A DNA stretch of 64,000 bases, from the NCBI RefSeq assembly GCF_011493005.1, contig NZ_CP049158.1:1762372-1826371 (forward strand), in the 5' to 3' direction. This DNA is from Caballeronia sp. SBC1. Lineage in GTDB: Bacteria; Pseudomonadota; Gammaproteobacteria; Burkholderiales; Burkholderiaceae. Every line of letters begins with the position of its first letter. Positions within the stretch are counted from its first letter, which is position 1. Under the pieces are notes generated by a model. That model was not told the origin of the DNA. It did no database searches and was given only the letters and a program-made list of their open reading frames with translations. The translations under genes and the position numbers were made by a program. Shown in pieces: positions 30,288 through 61,041 of the stretch.

Positions 30288-30305
30288 GGTGAGCGATTTC
30301 GGGAG
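30288..30305 (+). repeat. Dispersed iteron copy
   Basis: GGTGAGCGATTTCGGGAG, preceded by AAA as in the origin array, 32 kb from that array. Confidence 0.75.
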
Positions 30306-30555
30306 CCGCGCGAGGTGAGTTGCATGACCTGACAAAAACTCACGCTTAAGGCTATTTACAAGTATCGCTAACTAGATCAAAGAGCTGACCGGGCTTCAGC
30401 AAGTGCTTGAAGTATACTGCTGTGAGCCTTTATCTATAAGGCTTTCACGGCTTCTCTCCTACGTCGCGTTGAGATCTTCATTGCCCTTCATGTGGGTGAT
30501 ACACGATACAGACTCGACGCTTCGCTCGCGTAAGCGTGAAGTGAGTAGCGCTATA

Positions 30556-30573
30556 GGTGAGGTTATCCGGGAG
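30556..30573 (+). repeat. Dispersed iteron copy
   Basis: GGTGAGGTTATCCGGGAG, in the gap between permease and lipocalin genes. Confidence 0.8.
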
Positions 30574-30758
30574 GGTGATCCGGCGATGTTGAGAAAGCAC
30601 ATGAAGAGCTTTGAGTGAGTCTTGCGTCGTGATGCATGCGCCACGTTAAAGTGTTCTCTATCAATGAGTTGCGACCTGTTGTTAAAACAGTAGATACGAC
30701 TGCGGATGAGCTTTAGGTGCTTGCTGTCAGCGCATTTCGATGACTTCACCACGCTATA

Positions 30759-30776
30759 GGTGAGGCTATGCGGGAC
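30759..30776 (+). repeat. Dispersed iteron copy
   Basis: GGTGAGGCTATGCGGGAC; the eight bases before it match those before the copy at 30556. Confidence 0.8.
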
Positions 30777-30842
30777 CCGAAGCAACGGAATGAAGCTTGC
30801 TCATACAGCGACGCGTATCGCTTAAACACAACGAGGACCATC

Positions 30843-31409
30843 ATGAAATTCAAACGATCCGTCACCATTGGCACAACGGCTTTGCTGGTGATCGGCGGAC
30901 TGGGCCTGCTGGCCGCATGCACAATGGGCGGCAGCAACAAGAGCGGCAACGCGCGCGTGCCCGAGCCTGCGAAGCCGGTAGATCTTGATCGTTACCTGGG
31001 CCAATGGTACGAATTTGCACGCTATGAGAACCGCTTCGAACGCGGCTGCGAAGCAGTCACGGCGAACTATGCGAAACGCGATGACGGGCTGGTCTCCATC
31101 ATCAATTCATCTCGCAATGGCGGAGTGAATGGAGCATCCAGGTCGGCCGAAGGGAAGGCAAAGATAGTGCCGGAAACGAACAACGCGAAGCTCAAGGTGT
31201 CGTTCTTCGGACCGTTCTACGTTGGCGATTATTGGATACTCGATCACGCCGATGACTACACGTGGTCCATCGTCGGCGAACCGAGCGGCAGGTACTTGTG
31301 GATCCTGACGCGTGAAGCGAAGCCATCGGCTGAGCAACGCACGGCATTGGTCAATCGTGCACGCACGCTCGGCTACGACGTGACGTTGTTGCGAGAGACA
31401 CTGCATTGA
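30843..31409 (+). CDS. blc: Outer-membrane lipoprotein of the lipocalin family (Blc type)
   Basis: A 188-residue protein with a lipoprotein signal (hydrophobic stretch then LLAAC, Cys at about residue 26). The first lipocalin motif is YLGQWYEFARYENRFERGC (GxW), followed by a strand pattern ending DYTWSIVGEPSGRYLWILTR, the third motif. Bacterial lipocalins bind lysophospholipids or fatty acids at the outer membrane under stress. The ATG at 30843 follows an AGGA. Just upstream lie three dispersed iterons. Confidence 0.92.
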   Translation: MKFKRSVTIGTTALLVIGGLGLLAACTMGGSNKSGNARVPEPAKPVDLDRYLGQWYEFARYENRFERGCEAVTANYAKRDDGLVSIINSSRNGGVNGASRSAEGKAKIVPETNNAKLKVSFFGPFYVGDYWILDHADDYTWSIVGEPSGRYLWILTREAKPSAEQRTALVNRARTLGYDVTLLRETLH

Positions 31410-31463
31410 ACGCATCACACGCGAACCTTTTCGACGCTCACGCGTGAGGTGCTCATGTATCAA

Positions 31464-31757
31464 TCAAGCACCAATGAGGAAGCGTTCCTTGTTACGCCCT
31501 GCCAGCCATCCGGGTGGGCGTCCGCGCCCACTCCATGTCTCACCGGTCTTCGGATCGCGATACTTCGGCGGCAGTGGCGCCTTCTTGACCGACCTGCCGC
31601 GCCTCGCTGAAAAGCCCAGCTCTTCGGCGGTCAGGTCGTAGTCGACGATCTTGCGCTTGATATCCTCAATCACAGCAGCAATTTCCTTCTGCTGTGCAAT
31701 CGCAACTTCCTTATGCAGTTTTTCGAGTTGTGCGGTCAGTTGCTTGTAGGTGGCCAT
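31464..31757 (-). CDS. H-NS family nucleoid protein
   Basis: This 97-residue protein has an N-terminal coiled coil (ATYKQLTAQLEKLHKEVAIAQ) for oligomerisation and a C-terminal H-NS DNA-binding domain (KYRDPKTGETWSGRGRPPGWL; the GRGRPP hook enters the minor groove). It likely silences AT-rich acquired DNA. Burkholderiaceae carry many such genes. The ATG at 31757 is chosen for an N-terminus typical of the family; the frame extends to 31817. Confidence 0.93.
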   Translation of the reverse strand: MATYKQLTAQLEKLHKEVAIAQQKEIAAVIEDIKRKIVDYDLTAEELGFSARRGRSVKKAPLPPKYRDPKTGETWSGRGRPPGWLAGRNKERFLIGA

Positions 31758-31837
31758 AAGCTGCTCTCTGGGTTCGGCATGCGCCCGAATTGGATATGGC
31801 ATCGTGACGCCAGTCATCGGTTCTTACTCGTCACCAC

Positions 31838-33061
31838 TTAGTCGTCGATAGCGTCGTACAGATGGCGTTCGAACACGGCTGCCATCGGGAAGGGTTCTAC
31901 GCTGCGTCGCTGGATCAGCATGATGCCGATCATGTTTTCGACCGGATCGGCGAACCAGCTCGTGCCGAGCGCGCCTGGCCAGCCGAACGACCCTGCAGAA
32001 CGATACCCGAGCGTGCGTTGTTGTGCTGGATCGTCCACGATGGCCAAGCCCAATCCAAACCCCTGGCCGCCCCACACAATCTGACCGAACGCCGGAATGC
32101 GGCGCTGATCACGCGATAGAAAATTCGTGCGCATGAGGTCGACGGACCGATGCGACAGCAGGCGCGGACCGCGCGCGCGTTCATTGGCGTCGCCTTGCAG
32201 ACGGCCGCGGCCAAGCAGCAGGCGCGCAAAACGCAGATAGTCGTCGGCAGTGGAAACAAGACCGCCGCCGCCGTTCTGAAAACGCCCGGGTTTGGCAAAG
32301 CGGCTCGATGCCGGATGATCTTCCACCACGCGTTGCCGCGTAGCGGGATCGACAGCGTAGGCCACCGACAAACGCCCGAGTTTTTCAGGCGGCACCACAA
32401 AGCCGGTGTCCGTCATTCCCAATGGCTCGAAGATGCGCGTGCGGAAGAACGCTGCAAGCGACATACCGCTGATGCGCTGGATCAGCGCGCCGAGGACATC
32501 GGTGGAGATGCCGTAGTGCCAGCGCGTGCCGGGCTGGAACATCAAGGGCAACTCGGCTACGCGCTGAAGCCATGCGCCGGGATCGACCGATGCATCGACG
32601 CCGTTGAAGATGTTCCCGTAGGCGTCGGCTAACGCGCCAAATGCGGTGAAGTGATACGCAAATCCGGCGCGATGCGTGAGCAGATCGAGCAAGGTAATGG
32701 GTGCGCGGGCGGGTTCGGTATGGTCGAGCGGCGCGGTGGGATCGGCGAGCACCTTGGGGTTGGCCAGTTCGGGCAACCAGCGCGCCAAGGGGTCGTCGAG
32801 CGCGATAAGGCCTTCTTCCACCAGCATCAAGGCAGCGACGCTCGTCACGGGTTTCGTCATGGAAGCAATGCGAAACAGCGTGTCGCGCGTCATGGGCGTG
32901 AGGGTTTCGCTGTCGCTGTGACCCAACGTGTCGACCCGGGCTATTTCGGCATGCCGCCAGACCAGGGTGACGCAGCCGGCAACGTCGCCATTCTCGACGA
33001 ACTGCTGCATTGCGGTACGAGTGCGCTCAAGGCGCGTGGCGCTGAATCCCGCGTCGGACAT
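31838..33061 (-). CDS. Serine hydrolase of the beta-lactamase class C / esterase EstB family
   Basis: The 407-residue protein shows the class C fold. The nucleophile motif is SMTK (FRIASMTKPVTSVAALML, Ser at about residue 68). The second motif has the Tyr of YxN-type sites in HYGISTDVLGALIQ at about 180. No signal peptide, so it is a cytoplasmic esterase rather than a periplasmic beta-lactamase. The substrate is unknown. It lies alone on the minus strand downstream of a promoter-length gap. Confidence 0.9.
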   Translation of the reverse strand: MSDAGFSATRLERTRTAMQQFVENGDVAGCVTLVWRHAEIARVDTLGHSDSETLTPMTRDTLFRIASMTKPVTSVAALMLVEEGLIALDDPLARWLPELANPKVLADPTAPLDHTEPARAPITLLDLLTHRAGFAYHFTAFGALADAYGNIFNGVDASVDPGAWLQRVAELPLMFQPGTRWHYGISTDVLGALIQRISGMSLAAFFRTRIFEPLGMTDTGFVVPPEKLGRLSVAYAVDPATRQRVVEDHPASSRFAKPGRFQNGGGGLVSTADDYLRFARLLLGRGRLQGDANERARGPRLLSHRSVDLMRTNFLSRDQRRIPAFGQIVWGGQGFGLGLAIVDDPAQQRTLGYRSAGSFGWPGALGTSWFADPVENMIGIMLIQRRSVEPFPMAAVFERHLYDAIDD

Positions 33062-33200
33062 TGAATATCCCTCTTTGTACGCATTTTCTCAGCGCATCAT
33101 TTAAGCACGCCGGAAATGGGACTCCAAGGGAAGATTTACCGCGGGTTGTAACTCCGTGACACAAAATTGGAAATCAATACATCGAATCCTTAAGGAAACC

Positions 33201-33419
33201 TTAAGCCATCGCGCAGTTTAATCCCACGCTGGCTTCAAGCCGCTCGAGCCGGTCGTTGATTCGCTGCATGCGTGATTGCTGCGCTGGAACAAGCGCACTG
33301 GATGCGACCAAATCAACCCGGTTACGCCAATAGGACAAGGGGATGCGGTCATCGGTGGAAATTCTTCCGATTACCTGCTCCAGATGGAGAATATCCGTTT
33401 CGATTTGACGATGATTCAT
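33201..33419 (-). CDS. Small hypothetical protein (72 aa, helical)
   Basis: ATG at 33419 behind GGAG. The protein is charged and helical (MNHRQIETDILHLEQVIGRI, later RINDRLERLEASVG), probably coiled coil. I do not recognise it. The gene is divergent from the LuxR regulator to its right and may be its target. Confidence 0.5.
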   Translation of the reverse strand: MNHRQIETDILHLEQVIGRISTDDRIPLSYWRNRVDLVASSALVPAQQSRMQRINDRLERLEASVGLNCAMA

Positions 33420-33703
33420 TCACTACTCCAAGGTAGGTTATTTTTACTTTTGATAGAACGAGTTCGAAGCAACACGCGGAACAGATAACCGTTTTCGGTG
33501 TCACAACTGGAACAAACTGGGTGCTCTCGGTTCGCGCAATGCGCGGAACGCACCGCCAGAGGAAGGCAGCATAAGCGCTCGAAGGACTTCCTGCAGAGTA
33601 TCGAAGCACGCGGGGGTTGTATATTCCGCAAATGCGGAACAGTAAAAATGCAATAAGCCGGCATTTCGGATCGGCAAATTATCCGCATGACAGGAGAAAA
33701 TGG

Positions 33704-34771
33704 ATGCTTTTTGAAAGCGACCAATACGACCAGGCTGTCAACGTCATATATGAAACGCTCGCACGTCCTCGCGGATGGCATGCCGTTTGTACTGCGATCG
33801 CCAGCTTGATTGGCGCTCGCGCAGTCTGGATAACCGTCAGCAATAAGCAGCCTGCTAATTTGTATTCCGAAAGTTTCGGATATCAAGAAAATACAAATTA
33901 TTACGACATTTTCAGAAATTCATCGACGGAAATTACGAAAAGTCCAATTGAATCGTTTGCGCGCCTTGAATCCGATCAGAAAGGTGCTGATTCCTTGAAT
34001 ATAAGCGCACCAGGACATGTTTTAAGCCGGCCGATCCTTGAGACTGGCGAATTGCTGATCACGCTGGCTTGCGAGTTTGCATCGGAGGGGGAGGCTGTTA
34101 TCCAGTCCGAGCCGCGCTGGCTCGATCGCTTGATGCCGCATCTTTCACGCGCTGCACAACTTCAGGGCGCGCGTTATTTCGCGACGCCCGAGCTTTTCGC
34201 CCGCATTCCCTTTCTCGACGAATGGCGTCAACCCGCCATGCTCGTCGAATTGAACGGGACGGTGCTCCGCGTTAATGACGCAACCACGCGGATGCTCACG
34301 CGTACCAAGTTGGTTCAAGTTGTAGACGGCATGCTTGAACTGCAAGCCGCTGTACAACGCCAGATTCTGGACGAATGCCTTGCGGCGGCAGACGCAACGC
34401 CGGCGTATAGGATGCTTCGGCTGACAGAAGAACCCCACGCGGAGCCTGCGGGTCAAGACGCGCTGTACGTGTTTTATCACCCGGTTGCGGTGAGCCACGG
34501 GCACGCCGCGCTGCTCACGTTCTATCACCCGTATTCACCGCCTATAGTTGATCTGGATCTGCTTGCGACCGCGTTCGACCTGACGCCGGCGGAGTGCCGC
34601 GTGGCCTGTCATATCGCTGAAGGGCGAACGCCCAAGGAGATAGCCCACCAAACCGGCGTGCAGCACGACACCGTGCGCAAGCAGTTGCAGGCGATCTATC
34701 AGAAGACGGCAACAAACCGTCAGGTCGACCTGATACGCCTGTTGCTCAACCTGCCCGCGCACCCGGTTTAA
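33704..34771 (+). CDS. LuxR-type transcriptional regulator (orphan)
   Basis: A 355-residue protein whose last 70 residues are a LuxR/GerE helix-turn-helix (FDLTPAECRVACHIAEGRTPKEIAHQTGVQHDTVRKQLQAIYQK). The first 270 residues are a sensor region with PAS-like character (LVELNGTVLRVNDATTRML) but no quorum-sensing autoinducer domain. The ATG at 33704 follows AGGAGAAAATGG. No synthase gene is near. The ligand is unknown. Confidence 0.88.
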   Translation: MLFESDQYDQAVNVIYETLARPRGWHAVCTAIASLIGARAVWITVSNKQPANLYSESFGYQENTNYYDIFRNSSTEITKSPIESFARLESDQKGADSLNISAPGHVLSRPILETGELLITLACEFASEGEAVIQSEPRWLDRLMPHLSRAAQLQGARYFATPELFARIPFLDEWRQPAMLVELNGTVLRVNDATTRMLTRTKLVQVVDGMLELQAAVQRQILDECLAAADATPAYRMLRLTEEPHAEPAGQDALYVFYHPVAVSHGHAALLTFYHPYSPPIVDLDLLATAFDLTPAECRVACHIAEGRTPKEIAHQTGVQHDTVRKQLQAIYQKTATNRQVDLIRLLLNLPAHPV

Positions 34772-34795
34772 AGCTCAGTTGAACAAAGCCCGGCG

Positions 34796-35062
34796 TTACT
34801 TCGCCTTGCACGCGATCAAGAGGCTGTTCTGGCCGTTGTCGCTGCTTTGATCGAGGACGTCATAACTGCCGGCGCACAACGCGCGGGCATTTTCCTGGCA
34901 ATTACTCCAGCCGCCGTTAGCCGGGCACTGGATCATGTTGGTCGGGCGGCCATCGGATGAAAAGAGCGGCGGCGCGCTGCTGCACGCAGACAACACCAAC
35001 ACCGCAACCGCAAGCGGCAACAGGGCCAGAAAACGCGATGCTCGTACGCTGGAAATCTTCAT
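34796..35062 (-). CDS. Small lipoprotein with conserved cysteines
   Basis: An 88-residue precursor with signal sequence and lipobox (LSAC, Cys at about residue 27). The mature domain has cysteines in IQCPANGGWSNCQENARALCAGSY and a closing LLIACKAK, a pattern seen in many short Burkholderiaceae lipoproteins. Function unknown. It is convergent with the LuxR gene, 24 bp apart. Confidence 0.8.
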   Translation of the reverse strand: MKISSVRASRFLALLPLAVAVLVLSACSSAPPLFSSDGRPTNMIQCPANGGWSNCQENARALCAGSYDVLDQSSDNGQNSLLIACKAK

Positions 35063-35170
35063 CCGGAACCCCTTTTAACGCTGTTTTTATTGATTGCGCA
35101 AGTATGCCACGTGGAGCTTTCGGCTTGCCTCATTGCAGCGCTGAGCGTGCGCTCTCAGGATGCTTTCGCG

Positions 35171-35419
35171 CTACTTCTGAAGGCCCCAAATGTCGCTGTC
35201 GATCATCTCGACGCGGGCGTCGATTTTCGCTTTTACATCGGCGAGTGCCTGGTTGTAGAAATGCGCGCCAATAATTTTCGATAACTCGTCAAGCCATTCC
35301 TTCGCCTCGAACTGCCCGAGCCGGGCGTCGAAACGTTCTTGCGCCAGCCGCTGCAACTGGTCAATCGCAAGCGCCTCGTGCTCGCGGGATAACACCGTCT
35401 TGTTCGTGTCTTTGCTCAT
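35171..35419 (-). CDS. DUF2164 family protein
   Basis: An 82-residue soluble protein with the DUF2164 pattern: AIDQLQRLAQERFDARLGQF, then FEAKEWLDELSKIIGAHFYNQALADVKAKI. Function unknown. It is followed on the same strand, 108 bp downstream, by a small lipoprotein gene, and preceded by the sigma-54 activator gene. Confidence 0.85.
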   Translation of the reverse strand: MSKDTNKTVLSREHEALAIDQLQRLAQERFDARLGQFEAKEWLDELSKIIGAHFYNQALADVKAKIDARVEMIDSDIWGLQK

Positions 35420-35431
35420 GTCTTCCTTGGT

Positions 35432-36877
35432 TCAAACGTCTATGTCTAGCGCGACGATCTTCTTGTACATCGTCGCCCGGCCAATGCCAATCCGCTGCGC
35501 CGCCTCAGCCACGCGGCCGCCGCTTGCACGAAGGGCTTCCGTGAGGAAACGCTTTTCGAAGCCCGTCATGGCCTCGGCGTAAGACGTTGGGTCGGATTCC
35601 TCCGCCACGTCCGCGGGTTCCGGCGACGACACGGCGCTCGCCGCGCCCATGAAGGCGCCGAGCGCGTGGGCATCTATATGTTCGCTATCCGACAACATCA
35701 CCGCGCGCTCCAGCACGTTGCGCAACTCGCGCACGTTGCCGGGCCACGAATACGCGGCGAGCAGGCGTAGCGCGTCGTCATGGAGCACGAACTGGCCGGC
35801 GTGACGCGGGCGGGCATCGGCGGAAAGCTCCTCAAGCATGGCGTACACCAGCGCCTCGATATCCCCCGCCCGCTCGCGCAACGGCGGCGCGTGAATGGAC
35901 AGCACGTTCAGCCGATAAAACAAGTCCGCGCGAAACCGGCCGCTGGCGACAAGCGCCGGCAAATCCGCCGATGTCGCCGCGATGATCCGCACATCCGTGC
36001 GCACGATCCGGTTCGACCCCAGTGGCTCGAACTCTTTCTCTTGCAACACGCGCAGCAACTTGCCCTGCAGCACGAGCGGCATGTCGCCGATTTCATCGAG
36101 GAAGAGCGTGCCGCCATCGGCCAGTTCGAACTTGCCTACGCGGCCTTTGCGATCCGCGCCCGTGTACGCACCCGCCGCCGCGCCGAAAAACTCCACTTCC
36201 AGCAAGGTGTCCGGAATCGCCGCGACGTTCACACTCACGAGCGGCCGTGCGGCGCGCGTGGAAGCGCCGTGAATCGCGTGCGCCAGCAACTCCTTGCCCG
36301 TGCCCGTTTCTCCGGACAGCAGCACAGGCGAATCGACTTGCGCCGCGCGCCGCGCCTGGCGTTTGACATCGAGGCTCGCAGCGCTCGTCCCCACGAAACT
36401 CGCGAACGTATATTTGGCACGCCGCGCCTGCGCGAGCGATTGCCGTGTCGCGATCAGCTCCTGCTGCACACGCGAGTAGTGCGAAAAGAGTGGTGTGAGC
36501 GCTTTCATTTCGTCGAAGAGCGCGAAGCCAATTGCTCCAACCGTCTGGCCGAAGTCGTCCTTCAGCGGCAGGCGCGTGACGACCAGCGGCTCGCGATCCG
36601 TTTCCAGCAGATCAAGCAGGATAGGCTTGCCCGTTGTCACGACTTCGCGCATCAGGCTATTCGGAATCACCGATTCGCAATCGCGGCCGATCGCCTCTTG
36701 CGGGTCCGAAAACCCGAAGCGTGCCGCGTAGCGTTTGTTGATCCAGACGACCCGCGCTTCTTTGTCGACGATAAACGTGCCTTCGCTGAAATTCTCGAAG
36801 GTCTTGAAAAGCGAATCCATCGCGCGACGCAAAACGTCGCTGTAATCGACGGGGACATGCGTCCAGTCGTTGTGCAT
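35432..36877 (-). CDS. Sigma-54-dependent transcriptional activator with PAS sensor
   Basis: A 481-residue enhancer-binding protein. The N-terminal PAS domain (about residues 17-130) senses a small ligand. The central AAA+ domain has Walker A GETGTGKE, GAYTGADRKG (the GAFTGA loop that touches sigma-54) and FLDEIGDMP (Walker B). The C-terminal helix-turn-helix is of the Fis type (GRVAEAAQRIGIGRATMYKKI). I chose the ATG at 36877; the frame extends to 37015. It is divergent from a GntP permease with a sigma-54-type promoter, so it probably activates the permease and the 3-hydroxybutyrate dehydrogenase. Confidence 0.93.
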   Translation of the reverse strand: MHNDWTHVPVDYSDVLRRAMDSLFKTFENFSEGTFIVDKEARVVWINKRYAARFGFSDPQEAIGRDCESVIPNSLMREVVTTGKPILLDLLETDREPLVVTRLPLKDDFGQTVGAIGFALFDEMKALTPLFSHYSRVQQELIATRQSLAQARRAKYTFASFVGTSAASLDVKRQARRAAQVDSPVLLSGETGTGKELLAHAIHGASTRAARPLVSVNVAAIPDTLLEVEFFGAAAGAYTGADRKGRVGKFELADGGTLFLDEIGDMPLVLQGKLLRVLQEKEFEPLGSNRIVRTDVRIIAATSADLPALVASGRFRADLFYRLNVLSIHAPPLRERAGDIEALVYAMLEELSADARPRHAGQFVLHDDALRLLAAYSWPGNVRELRNVLERAVMLSDSEHIDAHALGAFMGAASAVSSPEPADVAEESDPTSYAEAMTGFEKRFLTEALRASGGRVAEAAQRIGIGRATMYKKIVALDIDV

Positions 36878-37077
36878 CCAGTGTCTCGTGAGATTTTCTC
36901 GATATAGAGACAGAATATCTCTAAATGTGGAAACACGGCAAGACTGTTGCAAAACATTGTGCGACCGGCCGTTCGGGCGAATTTGTGTCGCGGCGTTGTC
37001 TCGATTGGTAGACATTATTCACGCTGATGCGCTCCGCAAAGACCGCCTTTCCTTGCTCAGCAACGCTTCCCGGTCTT

Positions 37078-37092
37078 TGGCATGAATGCTGC
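37078..37092 (+). promoter_or_regulatory. Sigma-54 (-24/-12) promoter of the permease gene
   Basis: TGG-CATGAATGCT-GC: the GG (37079-37080) and GC (37091-37092) are separated by exactly 10 bp, as sigma-54 promoters require, and lie 72 bp before the GntP start. One base of the -12 element (CTGC for TTGC) departs from consensus. Confidence 0.65.
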
Positions 37093-37163
37093 ATAAAGGG
37101 CGCACCCATTTTCGGACGGCTATTGCTGCTGCGCCCGGACACACAACAACTAACGGAGACTTA

Positions 37164-38564: not shown

Positions 38565-38702
38565 GGTTCTTGGTTTTGGGGTTTTTGCCAATTGCATCGG
38601 CGGCGTGCGTTGAAAGCCGCCGATGCATGCCACCCTCCGTGGTCCGCATCTGGCAAACTTCGCGTCAACCGCCCCCCGTTCTTCTCTCACAGGACTTCCC
38701 AC

Positions 38703-39503: not shown

Positions 39504-39587
39504 TGTCTCTGTGTGCGCCGATGAGCGGAGCGCGTGCCTGCCGTGGCAACCGTTGGTACTATCGGGGTTCGTAGAACGGAGACTCCG

Positions 39588-39821: not shown

Positions 39822-39920
39822 AAAGGGTTTGATTCCGCGTTTGATTCGTTCGCGCCCGGGATGACTGAGCGGGAGCCCGTAGGTGCCACCCACGGCGCGA
39901 ACGGAACACGTTAAACCCCC

Positions 39921-41939: not shown

Positions 41940-42141
41940 GACATCGTTCTCGTTAATAACGGCGTAAGGACATAAAGGACAGCGCGGGATGACAGGCGGC
42001 AACGCACTCGCTGGTCCGGGCAGGATCGCGGTGCGGGCGCACGTTTTCCGAGTCTAGAGTGCCACGAGCCTGTGTCCGGCGGCTCGGATGTCGAAGGAAC
42101 GTCGACATATCTGAGCAAGGGACATGCCATTTCCGCCAAAA

Positions 42142-42159
42142 GGTGAGTCTTTGCGGGAG
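42142..42159 (+). repeat. Dispersed iteron copy
   Basis: GGTGAGTCTTTGCGGGAG in the gap between the AI-2E transporter and hybrid kinase genes. Confidence 0.8.
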
Positions 42160-42165
42160 CAGAAA

Positions 42166-42183
42166 GGTGAGTCTCTACAGGGG
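42166..42183 (+). repeat. Dispersed iteron copy
   Basis: GGTGAGTCTCTACAGGGG, 24 bp after the copy at 42142 and in the same orientation. Confidence 0.72.
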
Positions 42184-42216
42184 CATGGGCTACACCGTAA
42201 CGGCTTGATCGTCCGC

Positions 42217-45116: not shown

Positions 45117-45176
45117 CGCGACAAGCCGATAAGGACACGAGGACACGAAAAACCCACTTACTTAGGGAGTTCAGTC

Positions 45177-47267: not shown

Positions 47268-47390
47268 CTTCGGCATGAGCTGGTATTCCGCGTGACGGGG
47301 GCGAGCCGGCACGCGGAGTTCGGCAAGGCGCACCGGGCATCCGTGGCCGGTTCATGGTTCATGGATCGCCCATCCTCGCGACACCATTCA

Positions 47391-49151: not shown

Positions 49152-49188
49152 GTGCCCTCCAGCGAGATCTGTTTTTATGTGCGCTCTA

Positions 49189-52168: not shown

Positions 52169-52725
52169 AGAACGCTTATGTGTCAGTGACGTGGGCCATT
52201 CATACGCCCAGCAGGTGGTGTCCGGGTAATGCTCGCAACTTCGATTCGAAACTTCGTCGCGCTCGATCACGCCGGACGAATCGACGCCCAAGCTTCAAAC
52301 ATCACGATGATGTTACCGCTTGCCGGGCATTCGTATTTTCTACCCTACTGTCCATGGGGACTTTGGGGTCGCGCTCTCTTCAGATCACGTTATCTGCTGG
52401 CTAACTGACTAAAAGCAGGTCTTCGGGCGAAGCGGTATGCTAGAGGCTTGTTTCTTAGTTTCTCAGGTAGCGGCAGGTGCCGACGAGGATCTCCGGTGCA
52501 CCGACGCCCCTGGGATAACGCCGATAAGACCGGCAAGATAAGCAACGTCATTTTCCTTACGATGGCCAACACGTATTGCCTACCCACGATTGCGGCATTC
52601 CGTCGTGAACTGCGAACAGACGTAAGTCGTGCTGCTTCACAGAGGCGCTTTATGCGCGGTGACATCCTCTCTGGCAACGACTCGTTGAGAGTGTCAGCCT
52701 TCATGCGGAACCTGGACACGAGTTC
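52169..52725. other. Intergenic region between serA and AraC-type regulator
   Basis: The gap separates divergent genes. A plus-strand frame at 52448-52735 has poor composition. No repeat or hairpin stood out. Confidence 0.4.
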
Positions 52726-53649: not shown

Positions 53650-53805
53650 ACTCCTGCGCAGCCTTTCTCCAATGCGGTCGTAATAGAGCAATTTAATCCA
53701 AGACGTAGGGCGTATTTGTCCTGCATGGAAGGTTGGCCGAAGCATATTGTGTGTGGGTGTCGCGGTGGTCCGCGCCAAACAACCTCCACCTTCGAGTTCG
53801 CCACT

Positions 53806-54507
53806 ATGACCGAATATGTCTTCCCCGCCCCTCAAACTGTCGCCGTGCCCGTCGCCGGCTCGAGCGCCTTCTTCGCGGTACGCCGCGTCTTTTGCGTAGG
53901 GCGCAACTACGCCGATCATGCGCGCGAGATGGGAGCCAACCCTGACCGCGAGCCGCCGTTCTTCTTTACGAAACCCGCCGACGCCGTCGTGCCCGCGACG
54001 GGAACACTTGCGTACCCGATGCTCACCGAGGATCTGCACCACGAGATAGAAATGGTGATTGCCATCGGAAAAGAGGGGCGACAAATCGAACCGAAGGACG
54101 CGCTGTCGTACATATTCGGCTACTGCGTTGGCGTGGACCTTACGCGGCGCGACCTGCAAGCGGTCGCAAAGAAGATGAGCCGTCCGTGGGACTGGGCCAA
54201 GGGCTTCGACGAATCTGCGCCCGTCACGGCTATCCGTCCTGCGACGGAAATCGGTCATCCGGGCAGCGGGCGCATTTGGTTGACGGTCAATGGCGAGACG
54301 CGGCAAACGGGTGATCTCGGCGATATGATCTGGCCAGTTGCAGACATCATCAGCCAGGTTTCACAAGCGGTTGTCATCAAGCCCGGCGATCTGATTTTTA
54401 CCGGCACGCCTGCGGGCGTCGGGGCGTTGAAGCCCGGCGATAAAGTTGCTGGCGGTGTCGATGGTATTGCCGATTTTCACTTTGAAATCGGCAAGGTTCA
54501 GGGCTGA
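53806..54507 (+). CDS. Fumarylacetoacetate hydrolase family protein
   Basis: A 233-residue enzyme of the FAH fold: VFCVGRNYADHAREMG is the family's opening; metal ligands are in DLHHEIEMVIAIG (two Glu) and GVDLTRRDLQ (Asp). The close TGTPAGVGALKPGDKV is diagnostic. Members hydrolyse acylpyruvates or diketones; this size matches YcgM/acylpyruvase types. Start at ATG 53806; an in-frame upstream extension from 53716 is unlikely. It follows the AraC gene by 156 bp. Confidence 0.92.
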   Translation: MTEYVFPAPQTVAVPVAGSSAFFAVRRVFCVGRNYADHAREMGANPDREPPFFFTKPADAVVPATGTLAYPMLTEDLHHEIEMVIAIGKEGRQIEPKDALSYIFGYCVGVDLTRRDLQAVAKKMSRPWDWAKGFDESAPVTAIRPATEIGHPGSGRIWLTVNGETRQTGDLGDMIWPVADIISQVSQAVVIKPGDLIFTGTPAGVGALKPGDKVAGGVDGIADFHFEIGKVQG

Positions 54508-54594
54508 ATTCAAGGGCGTTGGTAGCCGGTGGATTGAATCTCCGAGGTTGCAGGCTATAGCTGCCCCGTAGGCGTTGCAGCGATCCGCTTGATG

Positions 54595-54616
54595 CGCGCC
54601 GGCCGAAGCCGGCGCG
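54595..54616. terminator. GC-rich hairpin between convergent genes
   Basis: CGCGCCGGC and GCCGGCGCG pair over 9 bp with a CGAA tetraloop, between the ends of the hydrolase and phospholipase genes. Confidence 0.7.
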
Positions 54617-54634
54617 GTCTGTCTTCAATATTCT

Positions 54635-56755
54635 TCAGACAGGTTTCGTGACGGGCGCCGTGGCAGCGGGATCGCTTGTGCCCACGCGCCCGGTTTCGAC
54701 GTGCCCCGCCAGGCGGCGCTGGAATGCCGGGTTGGACGGCATCGTGACCTGCAGGTCGTACCAGTTACTGCTGCACGACAGGTCCCAGTGATCCTCGGCG
54801 GTTTGGACCGCGGGCACCGTAATCGATCGCGGTGGCTGGCCGTAGGCCAGGTCGGTGACCGTGAAGACAACCGGCACGGTGCCCTGGTTGCTGATTGTCA
54901 GATAGACGTTGCCGTTGGCCACGTCATAGCACGTGACCGTCTCGGGTTGCACGGCCGCGTCTGCTGCAACCGCGCCCGTGAAACGCCGGAAATACCCGTT
55001 GGGACCATATACGCTCAACGCGTAGTGACCGGTTGTATCGGCGGGCCATGTATCGGAAAGCTGCTTGCCTGCTTCGACGGTATAACGCCTGGGCATTGCC
55101 GTTGGGTCGGCCGTGTACACATAGAAATTCGCGCCCACCTTGCCGGTATTCGCGAAGGTCAGTGTGTAAGTCTGGCTTTGCACCTGCAGCGTGCCGTTCA
55201 CATGCAGTTCATAGGGCAACGGCCGCGCCGGACGCGTGCCCGGCTCCTGTGCCGCGATAACCTGCGCCGAAGTGGCAGCGGGCGCAGTCTGGCTGGTCGG
55301 CAACGCGCATTGCATATCGGCCGCTGCAATGTATCCCGACGTACTCGGCAGCGCCGGCACGGTAGCATCAGGCTTCGAAAAATCGAACGCCGACGTCAAG
55401 TCGCCGCATATGGCGCGACGCCACGGCGTAAGGTTCGTTTCAACCACCCCAAAACGTTTTTCGATGAATTGCAGCACCGACGTGTGATCGAATACCTGCG
55501 AGCAGACAAAACCGCCTTTGCTCCACGGTGAGACAACGGTCATCGGCACCCGCGGTCCGAGACCGTAAGGCAGGTTGTCGGCCGTGTATGTACCGGCTTG
55601 CGCGGCAGTCACCACGGTATGGCGTTCGAGCGTGATGTCCGCTGTACTCAGGCCCGAGCCCGGCAACGTAGGCGCTTGCGGCGGCACCATGTGATCGAAG
55701 AAACCATCGTTCTCGTCATACATGATGAATAGGGCCGTCTTGCTCCACACATCGGGGTTCGCGGTCAGGGCATCGAGGATCATCGAGATGTATTCCGCCC
55801 CGTAGAGCGGCGTCCATTTCGGGTGCTCGGAATAAGCGGCGGGCGGCAGCAGCCACGAGACCTGCGGCAAGGCGTTAGCCACCACATCCGCTTTGAGTTG
55901 CGTCAGCGTGCGAGCGGTCATCGCCTTCGTGTTCAGCGCTGAACCAGCCGGCGCATTCACGTAGTTCTGGAAGTTCGCCAGCACATTGGTGCCGTAGTTG
56001 CCGTTGTAGTTATCGAAGCCCGTTCCCTGCTGATAGATCTGCCATGAGATGCCGGCCGCTTCCAGCCGCTCCGGATAGGTCGTCCAGTTGAACGGCGTCA
56101 TCTGGAGCGTATCGAACTGGTTGTCCACGTAGTCCGTGTTGTCGAGCAGCGGACCGCCGCCCGCCCCGGTCGGGTCGACCATCCCGGTCATCAGGTACAT
56201 CCGGTTCGGATGCGTGTTTCCGGGTATCGAGCAGAAATAGTGATCGCAGACGGTGAACGCATCCGCGAGCGCGTAGTGAAATGGGATGTCCGCACGCACG
56301 TGATAGCCCATCGTCATGTCAGTCTTCTGCACCGCCCATTTGTCGGCGCGGCCGTTGTCGATCGCGCCATGCGTGGTCGCCCATGTATGCGGCAGCCCAC
56401 CTATACATTGCGCATTGACGGCCGGGTTGGTCGTGTCGTAACGAAATGGGGCGATGGTCTGTGCCTGATTCTCCTGACGCGGCTGGAACCATACCGGCAA
56501 CCCATTGGGAAGCGTCACGGGGAAGCGGTCGTTGTAACCTCGCACGCCGCTCAGATGTCCAAGGTAGTGATCGAACGAGCGGTTTTCCTGCATGAACACA
56601 ACAATATGCTCTACGTCGTTGATCGTGCCGGTAACGGAATTCGGTTCGATCGCGAGCGCCTTGCGGATCGAGTCCGGAAAGAGCGACGCTGCAGCGCCGG
56701 CACCGGCCAGGCTGGCGGAAATTTTCAGAAAATCGCGGCGGCTCTTCGTGACCAT
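54635..56755 (-). CDS. Tat-exported phospholipase C (phosphocholine-specific type)
   Basis: A 706-residue secreted enzyme. The N-terminus has the twin-arginine motif SRRDFLK before a hydrophobic stretch (cleavage near residue 36), then the phosphoesterase domain: HIVVFMQENRSFDHYLGHLSG holds the catalytic Glu-Asn of the PLC/acid-phosphatase family, and IMYDENDGFFDHMVPP metal ligands. The last 200 residues hold two beta-sandwich DUF756 domains typical of PlcH/PlcN. It cleaves phosphatidylcholine, releasing phosphocholine. A small lipoprotein gene precedes it on the same strand. Confidence 0.95.
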   Translation of the reverse strand: MVTKSRRDFLKISASLAGAGAAASLFPDSIRKALAIEPNSVTGTINDVEHIVVFMQENRSFDHYLGHLSGVRGYNDRFPVTLPNGLPVWFQPRQENQAQTIAPFRYDTTNPAVNAQCIGGLPHTWATTHGAIDNGRADKWAVQKTDMTMGYHVRADIPFHYALADAFTVCDHYFCSIPGNTHPNRMYLMTGMVDPTGAGGGPLLDNTDYVDNQFDTLQMTPFNWTTYPERLEAAGISWQIYQQGTGFDNYNGNYGTNVLANFQNYVNAPAGSALNTKAMTARTLTQLKADVVANALPQVSWLLPPAAYSEHPKWTPLYGAEYISMILDALTANPDVWSKTALFIMYDENDGFFDHMVPPQAPTLPGSGLSTADITLERHTVVTAAQAGTYTADNLPYGLGPRVPMTVVSPWSKGGFVCSQVFDHTSVLQFIEKRFGVVETNLTPWRRAICGDLTSAFDFSKPDATVPALPSTSGYIAAADMQCALPTSQTAPAATSAQVIAAQEPGTRPARPLPYELHVNGTLQVQSQTYTLTFANTGKVGANFYVYTADPTAMPRRYTVEAGKQLSDTWPADTTGHYALSVYGPNGYFRRFTGAVAADAAVQPETVTCYDVANGNVYLTISNQGTVPVVFTVTDLAYGQPPRSITVPAVQTAEDHWDLSCSSNWYDLQVTMPSNPAFQRRLAGHVETGRVGTSDPAATAPVTKPV

Positions 56756-56839
56756 GCGCTTACCTTTTTGTGTTCTGAGGGGAATGATTGGCCGTCCGCG
56801 GGCACACGGCGGCCGATTTTTCAGGGGACTATGACGATG

Positions 56840-57025
56840 CTATGTATACGTTAAGGATGACGAAGCAGGTGTCACGGATGGCGGACAGCTCATCTTGGCC
56901 GATACGGACGCGCCCCCGCACGCCGATTGACTCGGAGAATCCGAACTACCGCAGGCGGACAGCAGCAGTCCGGGAAGTATCGACGCGACAATGAGCGCAC
57001 AGAGTCGAAGTTTCGACGTTTGCAT
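56840..57025 (-). CDS. Small lipoprotein upstream of phospholipase C
   Basis: A 61-residue precursor: MQTSKLRLCALIVASILPGL then LLSAC, Cys at residue 24 as lipobox. The mature part is Ser/Pro-rich with two more Cys. The ATG at 57025 is set by the lipoprotein signal; the frame extends to 57190. It ends 85 bp before the phospholipase start on the same strand and may be co-transcribed. Function unknown. Confidence 0.65.
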   Translation of the reverse strand: MQTSKLRLCALIVASILPGLLLSACGSSDSPSQSACGGASVSAKMSCPPSVTPASSSLTYT

Positions 57026-57229
57026 GACTTTCTCGGGAAGGATCGGAGTGAACGGATACGCTCGGCGCATATCAATCAAAGCGACGCACCAAAACGATGG
57101 CGCTGAGAATACCTTTCGTTTATGACAGACCGTTGGAAGATTTGAAAAGATAAGAATTGTTGGCGCGCGGATGTCTCGAATCAGATTCAATTCGGTGGCG
57201 CCGCTGGTGGGTTCTGAGTTCGGACCCAG

Positions 57230-57247
57230 CTCCCGAAAAGACTCACC
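57230..57247 (-). repeat. Dispersed iteron copy (minus strand)
   Basis: Reads GGTGAGTCTTTTCGGGAG on the minus strand, facing away from the copy at 57325. Confidence 0.82.
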
Positions 57248-57324
57248 AATGACGGTCCATGCTGTGGGAGCGGCGTTTCTGGCAAGCCGTTTTCGAGCAT
57301 GCGCCCGACTGTTTTTGATCTTAA

Positions 57325-57342
57325 GGTGAGGTGATACGGGAG
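57325..57342 (+). repeat. Dispersed iteron copy
   Basis: GGTGAGGTGATACGGGAG, 77 bp from the minus-strand copy. Confidence 0.82.
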
Positions 57343-57397
57343 CTGGCCTAGAGCGTAGTCAGTGGATGAGGTTGGCGCCTGTCACAGCGTGGATTTT

Positions 57398-57416
57398 TAA
57401 TATGGAATCCATATTA
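57398..57416. promoter_or_regulatory. 19-bp palindrome, possible operator
   Basis: TAATATGG-AAT-CCATATTA, perfect 8-bp arms with a 3-bp centre, in an AT-rich pocket of a GC-rich gap. It looks like a dimeric regulator site (GntR or MarR size); no matching regulator gene is near. Confidence 0.5.
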
Positions 57417-57598
57417 GATAGGGGTCGAAATATATGCGGCGCGCGGATAAGTGTCGGCAGGTCGAGATTAGCGGCAGTCTCTGGAATACCTGACCTTGGG
57501 CTGCTTGAGGACGACCACACGCTCCCGCCCACGATTCGCCCTCGCTGGGCGATCTCGAATGAGGCACGACTAGCGCCTCAACGCCCGCAGGGGGGATG

Positions 57599-58132
57599 TC
57601 ACCAAAATCTGACGCGTAGCTGAAACCCCAGCGTGAAGGGCAAGTCGCTAGAGGGAATCGGCGGAATCAGGATGATGTTCGCGCCAATGCGACCGTACTC
57701 CGCCATGATGACCGGCGCGAGGACCGGACCCAGTTTGTGATCGTGGCCGATACCCCACTTGCCGTAGTCGTATCCCGATATCAAGCCGCCCATTGCGGCC
57801 AGTCGGATGTAACCCCAATGCGCGAATTCCGGCGCCCAAACGCCACCGCCATAAAACGAAGGTGCCGTAAGCGAATTTCGGAAGTAGCCGCCGGTGAGCG
57901 CCCACTGCGGCGCAATCCAGCATTCAACGCCAATGCCTGGATTGAATTGATCGAAGTGTTTTTTGGGATGAACGTGATATGAACCGATCATCGCGTCCGC
58001 CCATAAGCCGTCACTGCAAACCTCGGCTGCTGAGACATTCGATGTCGCGCCCAATGCCATCAAGGCCGCCAGCATGAGCGGGGCACGGATCTTTTTTGAG
58101 ATATTTTTTGAGACAGTTGCTGACGTTTTCAT
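57599..58132 (-). CDS. Outer-membrane beta-barrel-like exported protein
   Basis: A 177-residue precursor with a signal peptide (residues 1-36, ending VSAAE). The mature part alternates aromatic strands (WALTGGYFRNSLTAPSFYGG; IRLAAMGGLISGYDYG; YGRIGANIILIPP) and ends in LGFQLRVRFW, with the terminal aromatic residue of a membrane barrel. It recalls small lipid-A-modifying barrels of the PagL/PagP size class, but the catalytic residues of neither are evident. ATG at 58132 chosen by the signal peptide. Confidence 0.7.
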   Translation of the reverse strand: MKTSATVSKNISKKIRAPLMLAALMALGATSNVSAAEVCSDGLWADAMIGSYHVHPKKHFDQFNPGIGVECWIAPQWALTGGYFRNSLTAPSFYGGGVWAPEFAHWGYIRLAAMGGLISGYDYGKWGIGHDHKLGPVLAPVIMAEYGRIGANIILIPPIPSSDLPFTLGFQLRVRFW

Positions 58133-58793
58133 TCGGCTCAAACCTGTGCGTTCTGCCGTCGCGGTCTCGCCGACCACGCCTTTTTATTTAAAGTTCGAGC
58201 GGAACTTTACATGAACGTCGTAGGCATTTGTGTGAAATTGGGAAATGAGATTTAGGGAATTAAAGTCCTGAGTGGATTTGATATTTAGCTGAAATCTTCC
58301 CGCTTTTAATGACTTCATAGATGGACCATATTCGTTCGTCGATTTTTGGTTCGCTGCGCGAGATAGCCTGCGGAGTGTCAGCAGATGAGATGCGAGATCT
58401 CTTCGTCCAACTAGCACAATCCGGATCGCATGGACTTGGTGCAGCAGGGCAAACCGGTGGCCGGAACTTGATGCGCATAAAGTTTTCCGCCTGCGCGTGA
58501 AAGAGGGGACCCAGCAGCAAAGAACGTTTAGTTTCAAAAGCGCCCCTCCCACAAAATTCAGCTTTTCAACCCGATTAGGACAGGAAGCTGGATAACTCAT
58601 CCAAAACTGGCCGGGCAATTCCCAAGCTGATAAAGCCTTCAGGGGAAACCGTCTCTAGATAACCGGTCAATCCCAGCATTCGCCAGGGTCATCGTGACGA
58701 AGTAAACGTAAATGGCCGTCCCAAATCGCTTTGGAACGGCCAGCCACTTTCAAAGCCCCGCGGCAGCTACTCGCCGCAGCCTGATGTGATCAA
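58133..58793. other. Intergenic region, no supported gene apart from a hairpin
   Basis: About 660 bp of lower-GC sequence. A minus-strand frame (58184-58618) has no start signals. A terminator-like hairpin lies at 58713-58742. Confidence 0.4.
58713..58742 (-). terminator. Terminator-like hairpin after csbD-type gene
   Basis: TGGCCGTCCCAAA and TTTGGAACGGCCA pair over 13 positions with one mismatch and a 4-nt loop, downstream of the minus-strand CsbD gene. Confidence 0.6.
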
Positions 58794-58979
58794 TCAAGGT
58801 TTTTTGAGCGCGTCCTTTACGTCTTCGCGAGCATCGCCGACGCCTTTTTGCACCTTACCGGCTGCCTGTTGCATATCGCCCTTTGCTTCCTGGGTCTTGT
58901 TGCCGGTTACCTTGCCAACCACCTCGTTGACTTTACCCTTGGCCTGATTCACTACGCCGTCTTTCTGATCCTTGTTCAT
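58794..58979 (-). CDS. CsbD family stress protein
   Basis: A 61-residue hydrophilic protein: MNKDQKDGVVNQAKGKVNEV and GKVTGNKTQEAKGDMQQAAGK are the CsbD repeats. CsbD proteins rise in general stress, with unknown mechanism. The ATG at 58979 is preceded by GGAG. Single gene. Confidence 0.95.
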   Translation of the reverse strand: MNKDQKDGVVNQAKGKVNEVVGKVTGNKTQEAKGDMQQAAGKVQKGVGDAREDVKDALKKP

Positions 58980-59183
58980 CTTGATCTCCTTTCGTATCGA
59001 GGCGCGAAATCCGGGTCTCCCGGTATTCGCGACGTCATGTCAGAGAAAGCGCCCTGACCGTGTAATCAGAATGGCGATTTCGAACGCCGCAGAACAGCCG
59101 CACACGTCTGATTCCCGCGTAGGCGGAATCGCACATACGCGCGGAGCACTCAGCGCGACCCTAGAGGAACATTGCGATAAACA

Positions 59184-59199
59184 CTGTATGTTTGTACAG
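59184..59199. promoter_or_regulatory. LexA box (CTGT-N8-ACAG)
   Basis: CTGTATGTTTGTACAG matches the LexA consensus ends exactly and shares TTTGTACAGTA with the box at 16681. It lies 40 bp before the start of the next gene. Confidence 0.75.
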
Positions 59200-59239
59200 T
59201 ACATATCTTGGCGCAATGGCATGGATGGAGGAGAACAGA

Positions 59240-59599
59240 ATGGACTTCGACGAAGATCGTATGGACACCCCCGAATTCGCACGCACAGTGCGTGACCTGG
59301 AGCGGATTACGCGAGATATAGCCCAGCGCTATATCGTGCAAGGTGTGCCTTTGACTTGGCGGTTGCTGCTCGCCATTGAAGCAGAAGCGCTCGCGGATCT
59401 CGGTTTTGCAGGGCGACATGAGTCCGCACTCCGCGCGCTGTTTGCGCGCCCGGACGACATGGCTTTTCCTGAAACCGATGATCTCGTCGATTTCGGGGCA
59501 TCGAATGCTTTACCACCCGTATTTGTATTTGCCGTCGATGCGTACGATTGCGCGGCCCGTGCTGGACATCCTGAACTGGCAATAGTCGTGGCACATTGA
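59240..59599 (+). CDS. Hypothetical protein under probable LexA (SOS) control
   Basis: A 119-residue soluble protein from the ATG at 59240, behind GGAGGAG. It is acidic and mostly helical (MDFDEDRMDTPEFARTVRDL; LTWRLLLAIEAEALADLGFA), with no motif I can name. A LexA box sits 40 bp upstream in the promoter position, so expression should rise on DNA damage. It lies next to the recombinase and replication genes of the replicon, which suggests a role in replicon maintenance under damage. That is inference. A longer frame from 59192 would start inside the LexA box and is unlikely. Confidence 0.7.
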   Translation: MDFDEDRMDTPEFARTVRDLERITRDIAQRYIVQGVPLTWRLLLAIEAEALADLGFAGRHESALRALFARPDDMAFPETDDLVDFGASNALPPVFVFAVDAYDCAARAGHPELAIVVAH

Positions 59600-59998
59600 G
59601 ATCTGAACTCGCGACAGCGCAAATTGCGAGCATGGCCGCCGGGAAACCGGTGGCCAACATTTTTTTAACCGCGTTTCCAGCTGGTAGCCAGACTCGAGCA
59701 CGCTAGAAGCGCATCGCATGTCACGCGCAGGACAAACCGGAATGCCCGCCGTGGGTTCTTCTTATTGCTGGGGCTGGTCAATACGTCGTCGAGCTGTCAC
59801 GCCAGACCTCGCCTGCGAGCGCCTGGCAACGCAGCTTTCAATTTGCGGGCAGCATTTAGATCAGAACTGACCCTCACAATCTCTTTGCAACGACGTCTAC
59901 TTACCAAATGCATCGATAAATTCGTGCAATAGACGGCGCCGTCAGCTATCGCGTAACCTGTCGCTTTGGTACTTTACAACTAACGGATTACCAGACCA
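59600..59998. other. Intergenic region before the recombinase gene
   Basis: About 400 bp with no supported gene or obvious repeat. Confidence 0.4.
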
Positions 59999-61018
59999 AT
60001 GACCGCCTCCGCGAAAACACACGAAATTTTCGATCACGAGCGCGCAAACTGGTATGCCGATCCGCATAGCGCGTTCGACTCGTGGATGGCGCATCAAGCG
60101 TTCAAAGCGTCTTCCGCGGACGTCTACCGAGCGCAATGGGGGCTCTTCCTCGAGTGGCTGACCGTTAAACGAATCGATCTCCGAACTGTTGATCGACTTG
60201 CCATCGAACAATTTGTCACTCAATTAGAGATTCGAAAACCACAGCGTGTTCGCTATCTCCGCCTTATTGAACGGGTACTCGACCGTGTCCGCGAGATCGA
60301 AATGGCATCGACGAACCCAGCTCGCTTCATTGCCCAGGACGGCGAGGCTCCATGGCGAGATGCACGCGAAAACGAGCCAACAGGATTTCTCGCCCACGGC
60401 GAACGAGCGGCACTGATCAGGTATCTTTTCTCTCCAATCGGCAACCTGCCGGCGGGGCAACGCTGGCGAGAGCGCCGCGATCGTGCGCTGGTCGGCGCAT
60501 TCCTGGGTGGCGGGGTAAAAACGGGGGAGGCAGCGGCGCTGACCGTTAGTAACTATTCATGGAATCAACCATGGCTTGCTGTCGAGGCTACGAATTCCGC
60601 ATTAAGTCGAGAAACCCGGCTCGCACCATTTGCAATCGCGTTACTCGACCATTGGATCAGCGAGCGCAAAACAGCGCGATTACTGGGCAATCTGCTGTTC
60701 CCATCTGCACCATCGGGCCGCCCGATGCACAAGGCCACCATGCTGCGAGCGATCGATGCCGTGATCGGAGCCGCCGGCATTGCCGGTTCGCGAACGGCAC
60801 GCGCCAGTCCGCAGACCTTGCGCAATACCTTCGCGGCCGACTTGTTCGAAAGTGGCACAGCACCCGAACGCGTCGGCCAATGGTTAGGTTTTCAGCAACA
60901 AATCTCAGCACATCGACTGTATCGAGCATGGCAAAACTGGACAGGTGAGGAAATACGGGAGCGAGACTTGGCGGAGGCGCTAGAAAGCGGGCGCGAAGCA
61001 GACCACAGATTCGAATAG
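59999..61018 (+). CDS. Tyrosine-recombinase-like protein of the replication region
   Basis: A 339-residue protein with the two-domain plan of XerC/D-type recombinases: an N-terminal SAM-like helical domain (about residues 10-100, FDSWMAHQAFKASSADVYRA) and a catalytic-type domain from about 130. The usual R-H-R-H/W-Y residues are altered: GGGVKTGEAAAL has Lys where the first Arg is expected, SPQTLRNTFAADLFESG keeps one Arg but lacks both His of HxLRHxxA, and the final Tyr is present in AHRLYRAW. It may be a weak or non-catalytic DNA-binding homologue. Related genes sit beside repA/kfrA in Burkholderiaceae replicons, possibly for dimer resolution. An iteron lies within its 3' end. Confidence 0.8.
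   Translation: MTASAKTHEIFDHERANWYADPHSAFDSWMAHQAFKASSADVYRAQWGLFLEWLTVKRIDLRTVDRLAIEQFVTQLEIRKPQRVRYLRLIERVLDRVREIEMASTNPARFIAQDGEAPWRDARENEPTGFLAHGERAALIRYLFSPIGNLPAGQRWRERRDRALVGAFLGGGVKTGEAAALTVSNYSWNQPWLAVEATNSALSRETRLAPFAIALLDHWISERKTARLLGNLLFPSAPSGRPMHKATMLRAIDAVIGAAGIAGSRTARASPQTLRNTFAADLFESGTAPERVGQWLGFQQQISAHRLYRAWQNWTGEEIRERDLAEALESGREADHRFE
60944..60961 (+). repeat. Iteron copy inside the recombinase gene
   Basis: GGTGAGGAAATACGGGAG, coding for part of the C-terminal tail; the only intragenic copy. Confidence 0.75.
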
Positions 61019-61023
61019 TTCAG

Positions 61024-61041
61024 CTCCCGAAAAGTCTCACC
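61024..61041 (-). repeat. Iteron copy between the convergent genes
   Basis: Minus-strand GGTGAGACTTTTCGGGAG; its TGA is the stop codon of the KfrA-like gene. Confidence 0.82.

Follow-up and report, generated by a model that had tools for sequence, protein, structure and literature searches.

Iterons outside the core origin are familiar from plasmids P1 and F, in which arrays of the incA/incC type limit copy number by titration and handcuffing. In Vibrio cholerae, a 74-kb locus near oriII of chromosome 2 binds the initiator RctB and inhibits replication of origin plasmids (Baek and Chattoraj 2014, PMC3937223), and in Escherichia coli the origin-proximal datA cluster of initiator sites lowers initiation, acting on DnaA via ATP hydrolysis (PMC3937223). 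The Vibrio site crtS, located on chromosome 1 and without similarity to iterons, triggers replication of chromosome 2 (PMC6090056; the dissimilarity to iterons also in PMC3937223). For Burkholderia cenocepacia, Du et al. (2016, PMC4948915) mention in the legend to S1 Table that c2 iterons also occur at other places of the genome, among them a second cluster at a distance of 140 kb from the origin; the paper inferred that regulation of c2 is 'not typical of plasmids', leaving its nature open. Extra-origin iterons on the Vibrio secondary chromosome, and iterons outside the origin mentioned in passing for B. cenocepacia, are already known. The subject here is a set of copies of the origin iteron dispersed over the final 64 kb (the window, 64,000 nucleotides) of contig NZ_CP049158.1 (C3) of Caballeronia sp. 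SBC1. These sites are real and part of the C3 replicon, and their DNA sequence is conserved in several genera; they are probably, though by no means surely, extra-origin binding sites of the initiator Rep that selection has kept around the origin, where their most likely role would be to restrain initiation.

Like chromosome 2 of V. cholerae, C3 is a plasmid-derived secondary chromosome with copies of its origin iteron tens of kilobases away on the same replicon: origin-type sites occur above chance near the origin, and distal sites also exist. The initiators differ (RctB in V. cholerae, a Rep_3 protein on C3), and the C3-type sites, known here from sequence alone, are more numerous, conserved across genera and in one case embedded in the gene hpnD; the V. 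cholerae locus has a second, distinct inhibitory class of site (the 39-mer), the comparison here being of iteron-type sites alone. The datA locus is likewise an origin-proximal cluster of initiator sites, but it works on DnaA through ATP hydrolysis, and we know of no ATP-switched Rep_3 initiator. The incA/incC arrays of P1 and F are compact and beside the origin, whereas the chromosome 2 sites are spread over tens to hundreds of kilobases. With crtS, to which an initial annotation made from the letters of the window had likened them, the C3 sites share a location outside the origin and initiator binding (predicted here), but the analogy is poor, crtS being unlike an iteron and belonging to the other chromosome (PMC6090056); the sites described here are iteron copies on chromosome 2, and the search for them is blind to any crtS unlike an iteron. 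B. cenocepacia c2 has the same motif and the same replicon type, which makes the initial annotation's remark that such sites are not known for Burkholderiaceae not quite right, although the dispersed layout, its conservation, the hpnD site and function are not discussed in the available parts of that paper (PMC4948915). The open-licence PMC literature yielded no paper on conservation of the sites, on the sites 3 kb upstream of rep or on the hpnD site in Burkholderia-type chromosomes.

C3 (1,826,371 bp, taken as circular) belongs to an 8.85-Mb genome of five contigs. The rep gene (C3:1-1350, beginning just past the window end) encodes a 449-amino-acid protein (Pfam Rep3_N, 2.7e-11; Rep3_C, 5.9e-10) and is followed by convergent parB and parA. 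An identical Rep is encoded by NZ_CP049318.1 of Caballeronia sp. SBC2, the nearest named records are Caballeronia, and no PDB chain matched the Rep sequence at E 0.001. Because Rep is 93% identical to the chromosome 2 Rep of Paraburkholderia xenovorans LB400 and has a close relative in 24 of the 25 genomes examined in the genus, this one included, C3 is, by sequence relationship, a Burkholderia-type chromosome 2 and rep the chromosome-2 initiator gene of Burkholderia sensu lato. Contig C2 has no Rep_3 protein and no dense 8-mer array in its first and last 20 kb, and no RPA-family initiator was found in the genome. A Rep_3 winged-helix initiator gene beside a direct-repeat array, as in iteron-regulated Rep_3 replicons, is completed by the following element, which ends about 115 bp 5' of the rep start codon and whose motif matches the published B. 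cenocepacia c2 iteron consensus (PMC4948915) in reverse complement:

62615..63884, plus strand: origin iteron array of 18 same-strand 18-bp copies with the core GGTGAGNNNNTNCRGG, from which a few copies deviate

Scanning the window with a matrix built from these 18 copies (background at 18 bits or more, 0.15 per Mb), such as the initial annotation had suggested for a scan of the whole genome, yields ten dispersed sites of at least 18 bits where about 0.01 would be expected in 62.5 kb, and nothing else of at least 14 bits outside the array:

22469..22486, minus strand: iteron inside hpnD, 22.7 bits, read as codons GTG AGG ATA TTC GGG
30288..30305, plus strand: first of three dispersed iterons in the gap between a membrane-transport gene and a lipocalin gene (30229-30842), 23.6 bits
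30556..30573, plus strand: second of the three, 23.5 bits
30759..30776, plus strand: third of the three, 21.7 bits
42142..42159, plus strand: dispersed iteron in gap 42003-42216, 22.7 bits; this gap is also occupied by a site in five further Caballeronia genomes
42166..42183, plus strand: dispersed iteron 24 bp beyond 42142, 18.1 bits; this second site is present in genomes G020, G001 and G011 and absent from G019 and G013
57230..57247, minus strand: dispersed iteron in gap 56756-57598, 23.2 bits, with orthologs in G020, G019 and G013
57325..57342, plus strand: dispersed iteron in gap 56756-57598, 22.1 bits, with an ortholog in G020
60944..60961, plus strand: dispersed iteron inside the 3' end of an integrase-like open reading frame (ORF), 22.8 bits, inverted partner of 61024
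61024..61041, minus strand: dispersed iteron, 24.0 bits, one member of the pair situated about 3 kb from rep, in the gap where the integrase-like and kfrA-like genes converge, overlapping the stop end of the latter by 5 nt

All nine copies listed by the initial annotation exist at the start and strand given there (18.1 to 24.0 bits), but its list was incomplete, lacking 22469(-) and, beyond the window, C3:11189(-) and a cluster at C3:346656-346754. It had placed all but 60944 and 61024 wholly in gene-free gaps; both exceptions are right and the other seven do lie in gaps, 30759 on condition that the lipocalin gene starts at the signal-peptide ATG at 30843 (an alternative ATG at 30768 is inside the iteron), but the added site 22469 lies inside hpnD, which makes seven of the ten wholly in gaps, one overlapping a gene edge and two inside genes. 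A P value for intergenic bias was discarded along with the codon shares from the same analysis, the crude gene caller having missed the integrase-like and kfrA-like genes and placed a spurious ORF over 30556, and the spacings of the dispersed pairs showed no clear preferred helical period. The placement of the sites bears on whether Rep bound there controls neighbouring genes, as initiators autoregulate their own: gaps 30229-30842, 42003-42216 and 56756-57598 could hold promoters, but 61024 is in a convergent gap, 22469 is inside hpnD and 60944 is inside the integrase-like ORF, and of two V. cholerae genes with RctB sites in their promoters, one was unchanged and one weakly changed without RctB (PMC11711613). 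Transcriptional regulation is considered distinctly unlikely to be their role.

A genome-wide search with a one-mismatch iteron pattern, with the reversed pattern as control (8 matches in the genome), gave 45 matches, of which 33 are on the 1.83-Mb C3. The array accounts for 12 of these 33, rep itself for one and the rest of the contig for 20, of which 10 are no more than 75 kb from rep, 6 are 75-400 kb away and 4 are farther still. The other 7.02 Mb has 12 matches (8 of them on C1), about twice the 6.3 predicted by the reversed control; five of these 12 are near-identical copies of one sequence, and seven are left once they are set aside. The restriction to one replicon put forward in the initial annotation is borne out, equal density on the other replicons not having been seen: the dispersed sites are largely confined to C3 and concentrated within 75 kb of the origin. 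Outside the array, one-mismatch sites within 75 kb of rep number 10, 12, 11, 17, 9 and 6 on six replicons (C3, two of Caballeronia, LB400 chromosome 2, B. cenocepacia and M. rhizoxinica pBRH01), where about 0.14 is expected on each at the control rate of the C3 genome, and two further replicons have 10 (B. multivorans) and 12 (Caballeronia G012). An orientation rule, by which upstream sites within 75 kb would be opposite to the array, was rejected: it fits 8/8 sites in B. cenocepacia, 6/6 in M. rhizoxinica and 14/16 in LB400, but orientations are mixed in Caballeronia. As a separate observation, GGTGAGTGGCTTCGGGAG occurs in four identical copies (C1:327113, C1:2935779, C4:223858 and C5:120566), both C1 copies being in 252-amino-acid ORFs, and is probably a repeated element.

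The only other Rep_3 replicon of the genome, the 734-kb C4, carries its own iterons (GGTGAGGTNNNNTGTGC, 11 copies at one mismatch, all within 0.8 kb at the origin); none is dispersed on C4, and 5 matches elsewhere in the genome compare with 6 for the control. Dispersal is therefore not general to the Rep_3 replicons of this cell. The C4 iteron GGTGAGGTNNNYTGTGC (C4:497108-497868) has the left half GGTGAG in common with the chromosome 2 iteron and a different right half, which, to judge from the sequences, seems to be what separates the two Rep_3 systems within the cell.

Six Caballeronia genomes were compared, in subclades G000/G020/G019/G013 (G000 being the SBC1 genome, and G013 being covered by individual stretches of its sequence) and G001/G011. 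The gap between the membrane-transport and lipocalin genes holds three same-strand sites in 6/6 genomes, with differences in spacing, spacer letters and flanks. For noncoding orthologous sites, identity between the subclades is 542/572 in the core, 78/220 in the spacer and 356/1056 in the flanks, counted in positions; entry into this table was by matrix score, which builds in part of the core agreement, while presence in the same gap and the spacer and flank figures are free of that bias. The comparison indicates that, throughout Caballeronia, the dispersed sites stay in the same gaps between genes despite divergence of the flanking DNA, with some turnover (57230/57325 and 42142/42166 vary in number between species).

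The coding site permits a test without motif bias, the following gene having been gathered from other genomes by protein similarity alone:

22060..22962, minus strand: hpnD-like squalene/phytoene synthase gene (Pfam SQS_PSY, 2.5e-71), named from a relative on a Vallotia cooleyia plasmid

The search found 78 places in 76 of 120 genomes, of which 72 were read: 42 of chromosome-2 type, 6 of the Mycetohabitans/Vallotia group and 24 others, including two fragments (G127 and G055); the six places outside the count are a second G127 fragment and five weak matches of 35-39% identity (G045, G118, G154, G042 and the second of G085). The iteron core is intact in 41/42 hpnD genes of five chromosome-2-type genera, as against 1/6 in the Mycetohabitans/Vallotia group and 0/24 in other genera; these are related genes, not 42 independent events. 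In the 41 genes, the share of AGR codons at Arg161 is 0.97, compared with 0-0.03 at 25 other conserved arginines, and that of GGG at Gly164 is 0.98, compared with at most 0.27 at ten other glycines. The spacer codon is free to vary (ATA, ATT, ATC and also Val), in contrast to the invariant core; hpnD of G143 has serine AGC at the site and retains GTGAG. Rep was found in all 16 genomes with a chromosome-2-type hpnD that were checked, which represent all five genera, and in 15 of them hpnD and rep are on one contig, hpnD being 9-17 kb downstream (14 genomes) or about 54 kb upstream (one) of the rep start, with circular contigs assumed for three genomes. In G107 the two are on separate contigs, and this is the sole loss of the motif among the 42. 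Codon usage indicates that the hpnD iteron is held by selection at the DNA level, at the cost of otherwise avoided codons.

Sites close to the origin persist too. Of 80 loci kept from 221 relatives, 78 have at least 5 kb of upstream flank (L081 and L087 are short), and in 78/78 a 1-kb zone about 3 kb upstream of rep contains one or two sites of at least 16 bits, where 0.1 would be expected in total. The layouts are 28 inverted (+/-) pairs, 45 minus-strand pairs and 5 single minus-strand sites. At least two sites upstream of -1.65 kb are present in 78/78, some counts including outlying array copies (-1.65 to -2.06 kb), and 366 kb of sequence on the parAB side of these loci gave 0 matches. That the dispersed copies are functionless relics of array duplication or chance matches might be suggested by the motif they have in common with the array and by their turnover between species; occupation of the same gaps amid diverged flanks, the -3 kb sites in every locus, counts far above chance and, contradicting it outright, the avoided codons kept in hpnD make this explanation highly improbable.

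Under the preferred reading of the sites as Rep-binding sites that restrain initiation, firing of the origin would soon be followed by duplication of the roughly 6-17 sites that each of eight replicons has no more than 75 kb away and, in some species, of a more distant cluster as well. Their duplication would abruptly raise the number of places that hold Rep (titration), and Rep-bound sites could pair with the array (handcuffing); the array would be blocked from refiring until enough Rep had been made, and the next round would be delayed. The scheme, applied here by analogy, is the one put forward for the 74-kb locus of V. cholerae, for which there are measurements of inhibition (PMC3937223). 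Titration or handcuffing fits best because the sites are close to the origin, both this effect and binding by Rep being predictions. The initial annotation had offered titration, handcuffing or timing as functions: real, replicon-restricted and probably functional copies are strongly supported by conservation and codons, but the three mechanisms cannot be told apart from sequence.

Several points weigh against restraint of initiation by Rep at these sites. The distance to rep is not fixed, the three-site cluster of Caballeronia being as near as 26 kb or as far as 63 kb; some sites are 0.15-1.6 Mb from rep, where early duplication does not apply; the core agreement between subclades is in part built in, as said above; and deletion and mutations in V. 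cholerae were reported to have a silent or weak effect (PMC3937223, PMC11711613). The most serious competing partner of the sites is the product of the second of two genes near the array:

59999..61018, plus strand: tyrosine-recombinase-like (integrase-like) gene beside kfrA (Pfam Phage_integrase, 4.9e-13)
61037..62263, minus strand: gene for a KfrA-like coiled-coil DNA-binding protein (Pfam KfrA_N, 3.2e-15), between the array and the -3 kb pair

A kfrA-like gene is near rep in 78/78 loci with enough flank, its distribution in the sample equals that of the dispersed sites, and KfrA may be their real partner. The sites could then anchor bridging of the origin region through the KfrA-like protein, alone or with Rep, with no part in initiator supply. 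Three Vallotia plasmids (61-72 kb) with an orthologous Rep (77-80%) are in keeping with this idea, retaining an array of 10-11 sites of at least 15 bits but giving no match to kfrA and having lost nearly all dispersed sites (outside the array, one of the three has a single weak copy of 15.8 bits). The motif, however, is that of the array iteron, and its persistence without kfrA in Vallotia means that it serves Rep there; these replicons are small, and the joint loss may reflect reduction alone. Such a bridging role is judged improbable. The loss in Vallotia shows that the sites are dispensable there but is uninformative on mechanism, because these replicons are AT-rich and reduced.

The distal clusters bear on a different possibility, that the sites act as timing or activating elements, like DARS or a crtS in cis, at which passage of the fork alters Rep activity and chromosome 2 fires at the right time in the cell cycle. 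Several species (G000, G020, G019, B. cenocepacia and B. multivorans) possess a second cluster on the parAB side, at 150-350 kb from rep. That of C3 (346656-346754, +347 kb from rep) consists of four copies on the minus strand, in a gap that follows a hairpin resembling a terminator, and the orthologous place has four copies with the same spacing in G020 and two in G019. B. cenocepacia (NZ_CP091013.1:346898-347168, +208 kb from rep) has twelve iterons with an exact 23-bp period, a period observed for this cluster alone, and three more minus-strand copies 3 kb before them; a similar group in B. multivorans is at +154 kb. In NZ_CP091013.1 no site of at least 15 bits lies at 245-294 kb; the second cluster is instead at 347 kb and is probably the one that, in the strain of Du et al., is 140 kb distant. 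The surroundings of the Caballeronia and B. cenocepacia clusters have no similarity by blastn, and the position of the distal cluster therefore does not look conserved between genera; no such cluster is found at one mismatch in G001 or LB400, nor among the matches listed for G011 (40 of 44), and the known activating site, crtS, is unlike iterons (PMC6090056, PMC3937223). Timing or activation is held to be about as doubtful as the bridging role of KfrA.

A broader proposal, tentative and itself rather unlikely, though less so than these alternatives, is that chromosome 2 of Burkholderia sensu lato became chromosome-like through a replicon-wide counter read by the fork, made up of sites in gaps and in hpnD near the origin and of a cluster 150-350 kb away that would reset or time Rep, and which would be lost on shrinkage, as in Vallotia. 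Such a counter, if real, would be what Du et al. (PMC4948915) inferred for c2 as regulation 'not typical of plasmids'. For Vibrio there are detailed studies of how the replication of plasmid-derived secondary chromosomes comes to be coordinated with the cell cycle, and the C3-type sites would show that two lineages with different initiators both reached extra-origin initiator sites near the origin. The question is directly testable, each conserved site being removable without touching the origin and the hpnD site synonymously.

Further iteron-like sequences were observed far from the origins. C3 has two iteron-like sites 5 kb apart at 1110690-1115722, about 0.71 Mb from the origin, that at 1110690 being inside an ORF (codons CTT TTA); G011 and G019 have an identical 18-mer. 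Another distal coding site, 1413377, is read in common codons within an ORF and may be a coincidence. LB400 chromosome 2 has a pair of exact iteron cores near mid-chromosome (G041:C2:1496849-1497118, about 1.5 Mb from rep). Within the window, positions 28165-28205 form a 19-bp inverted repeat that is nearly perfect and has a loop of 3 bp (TCCACAAAGTTGTCCACAG), and in which TTGTCCACA resembles a DnaA box.

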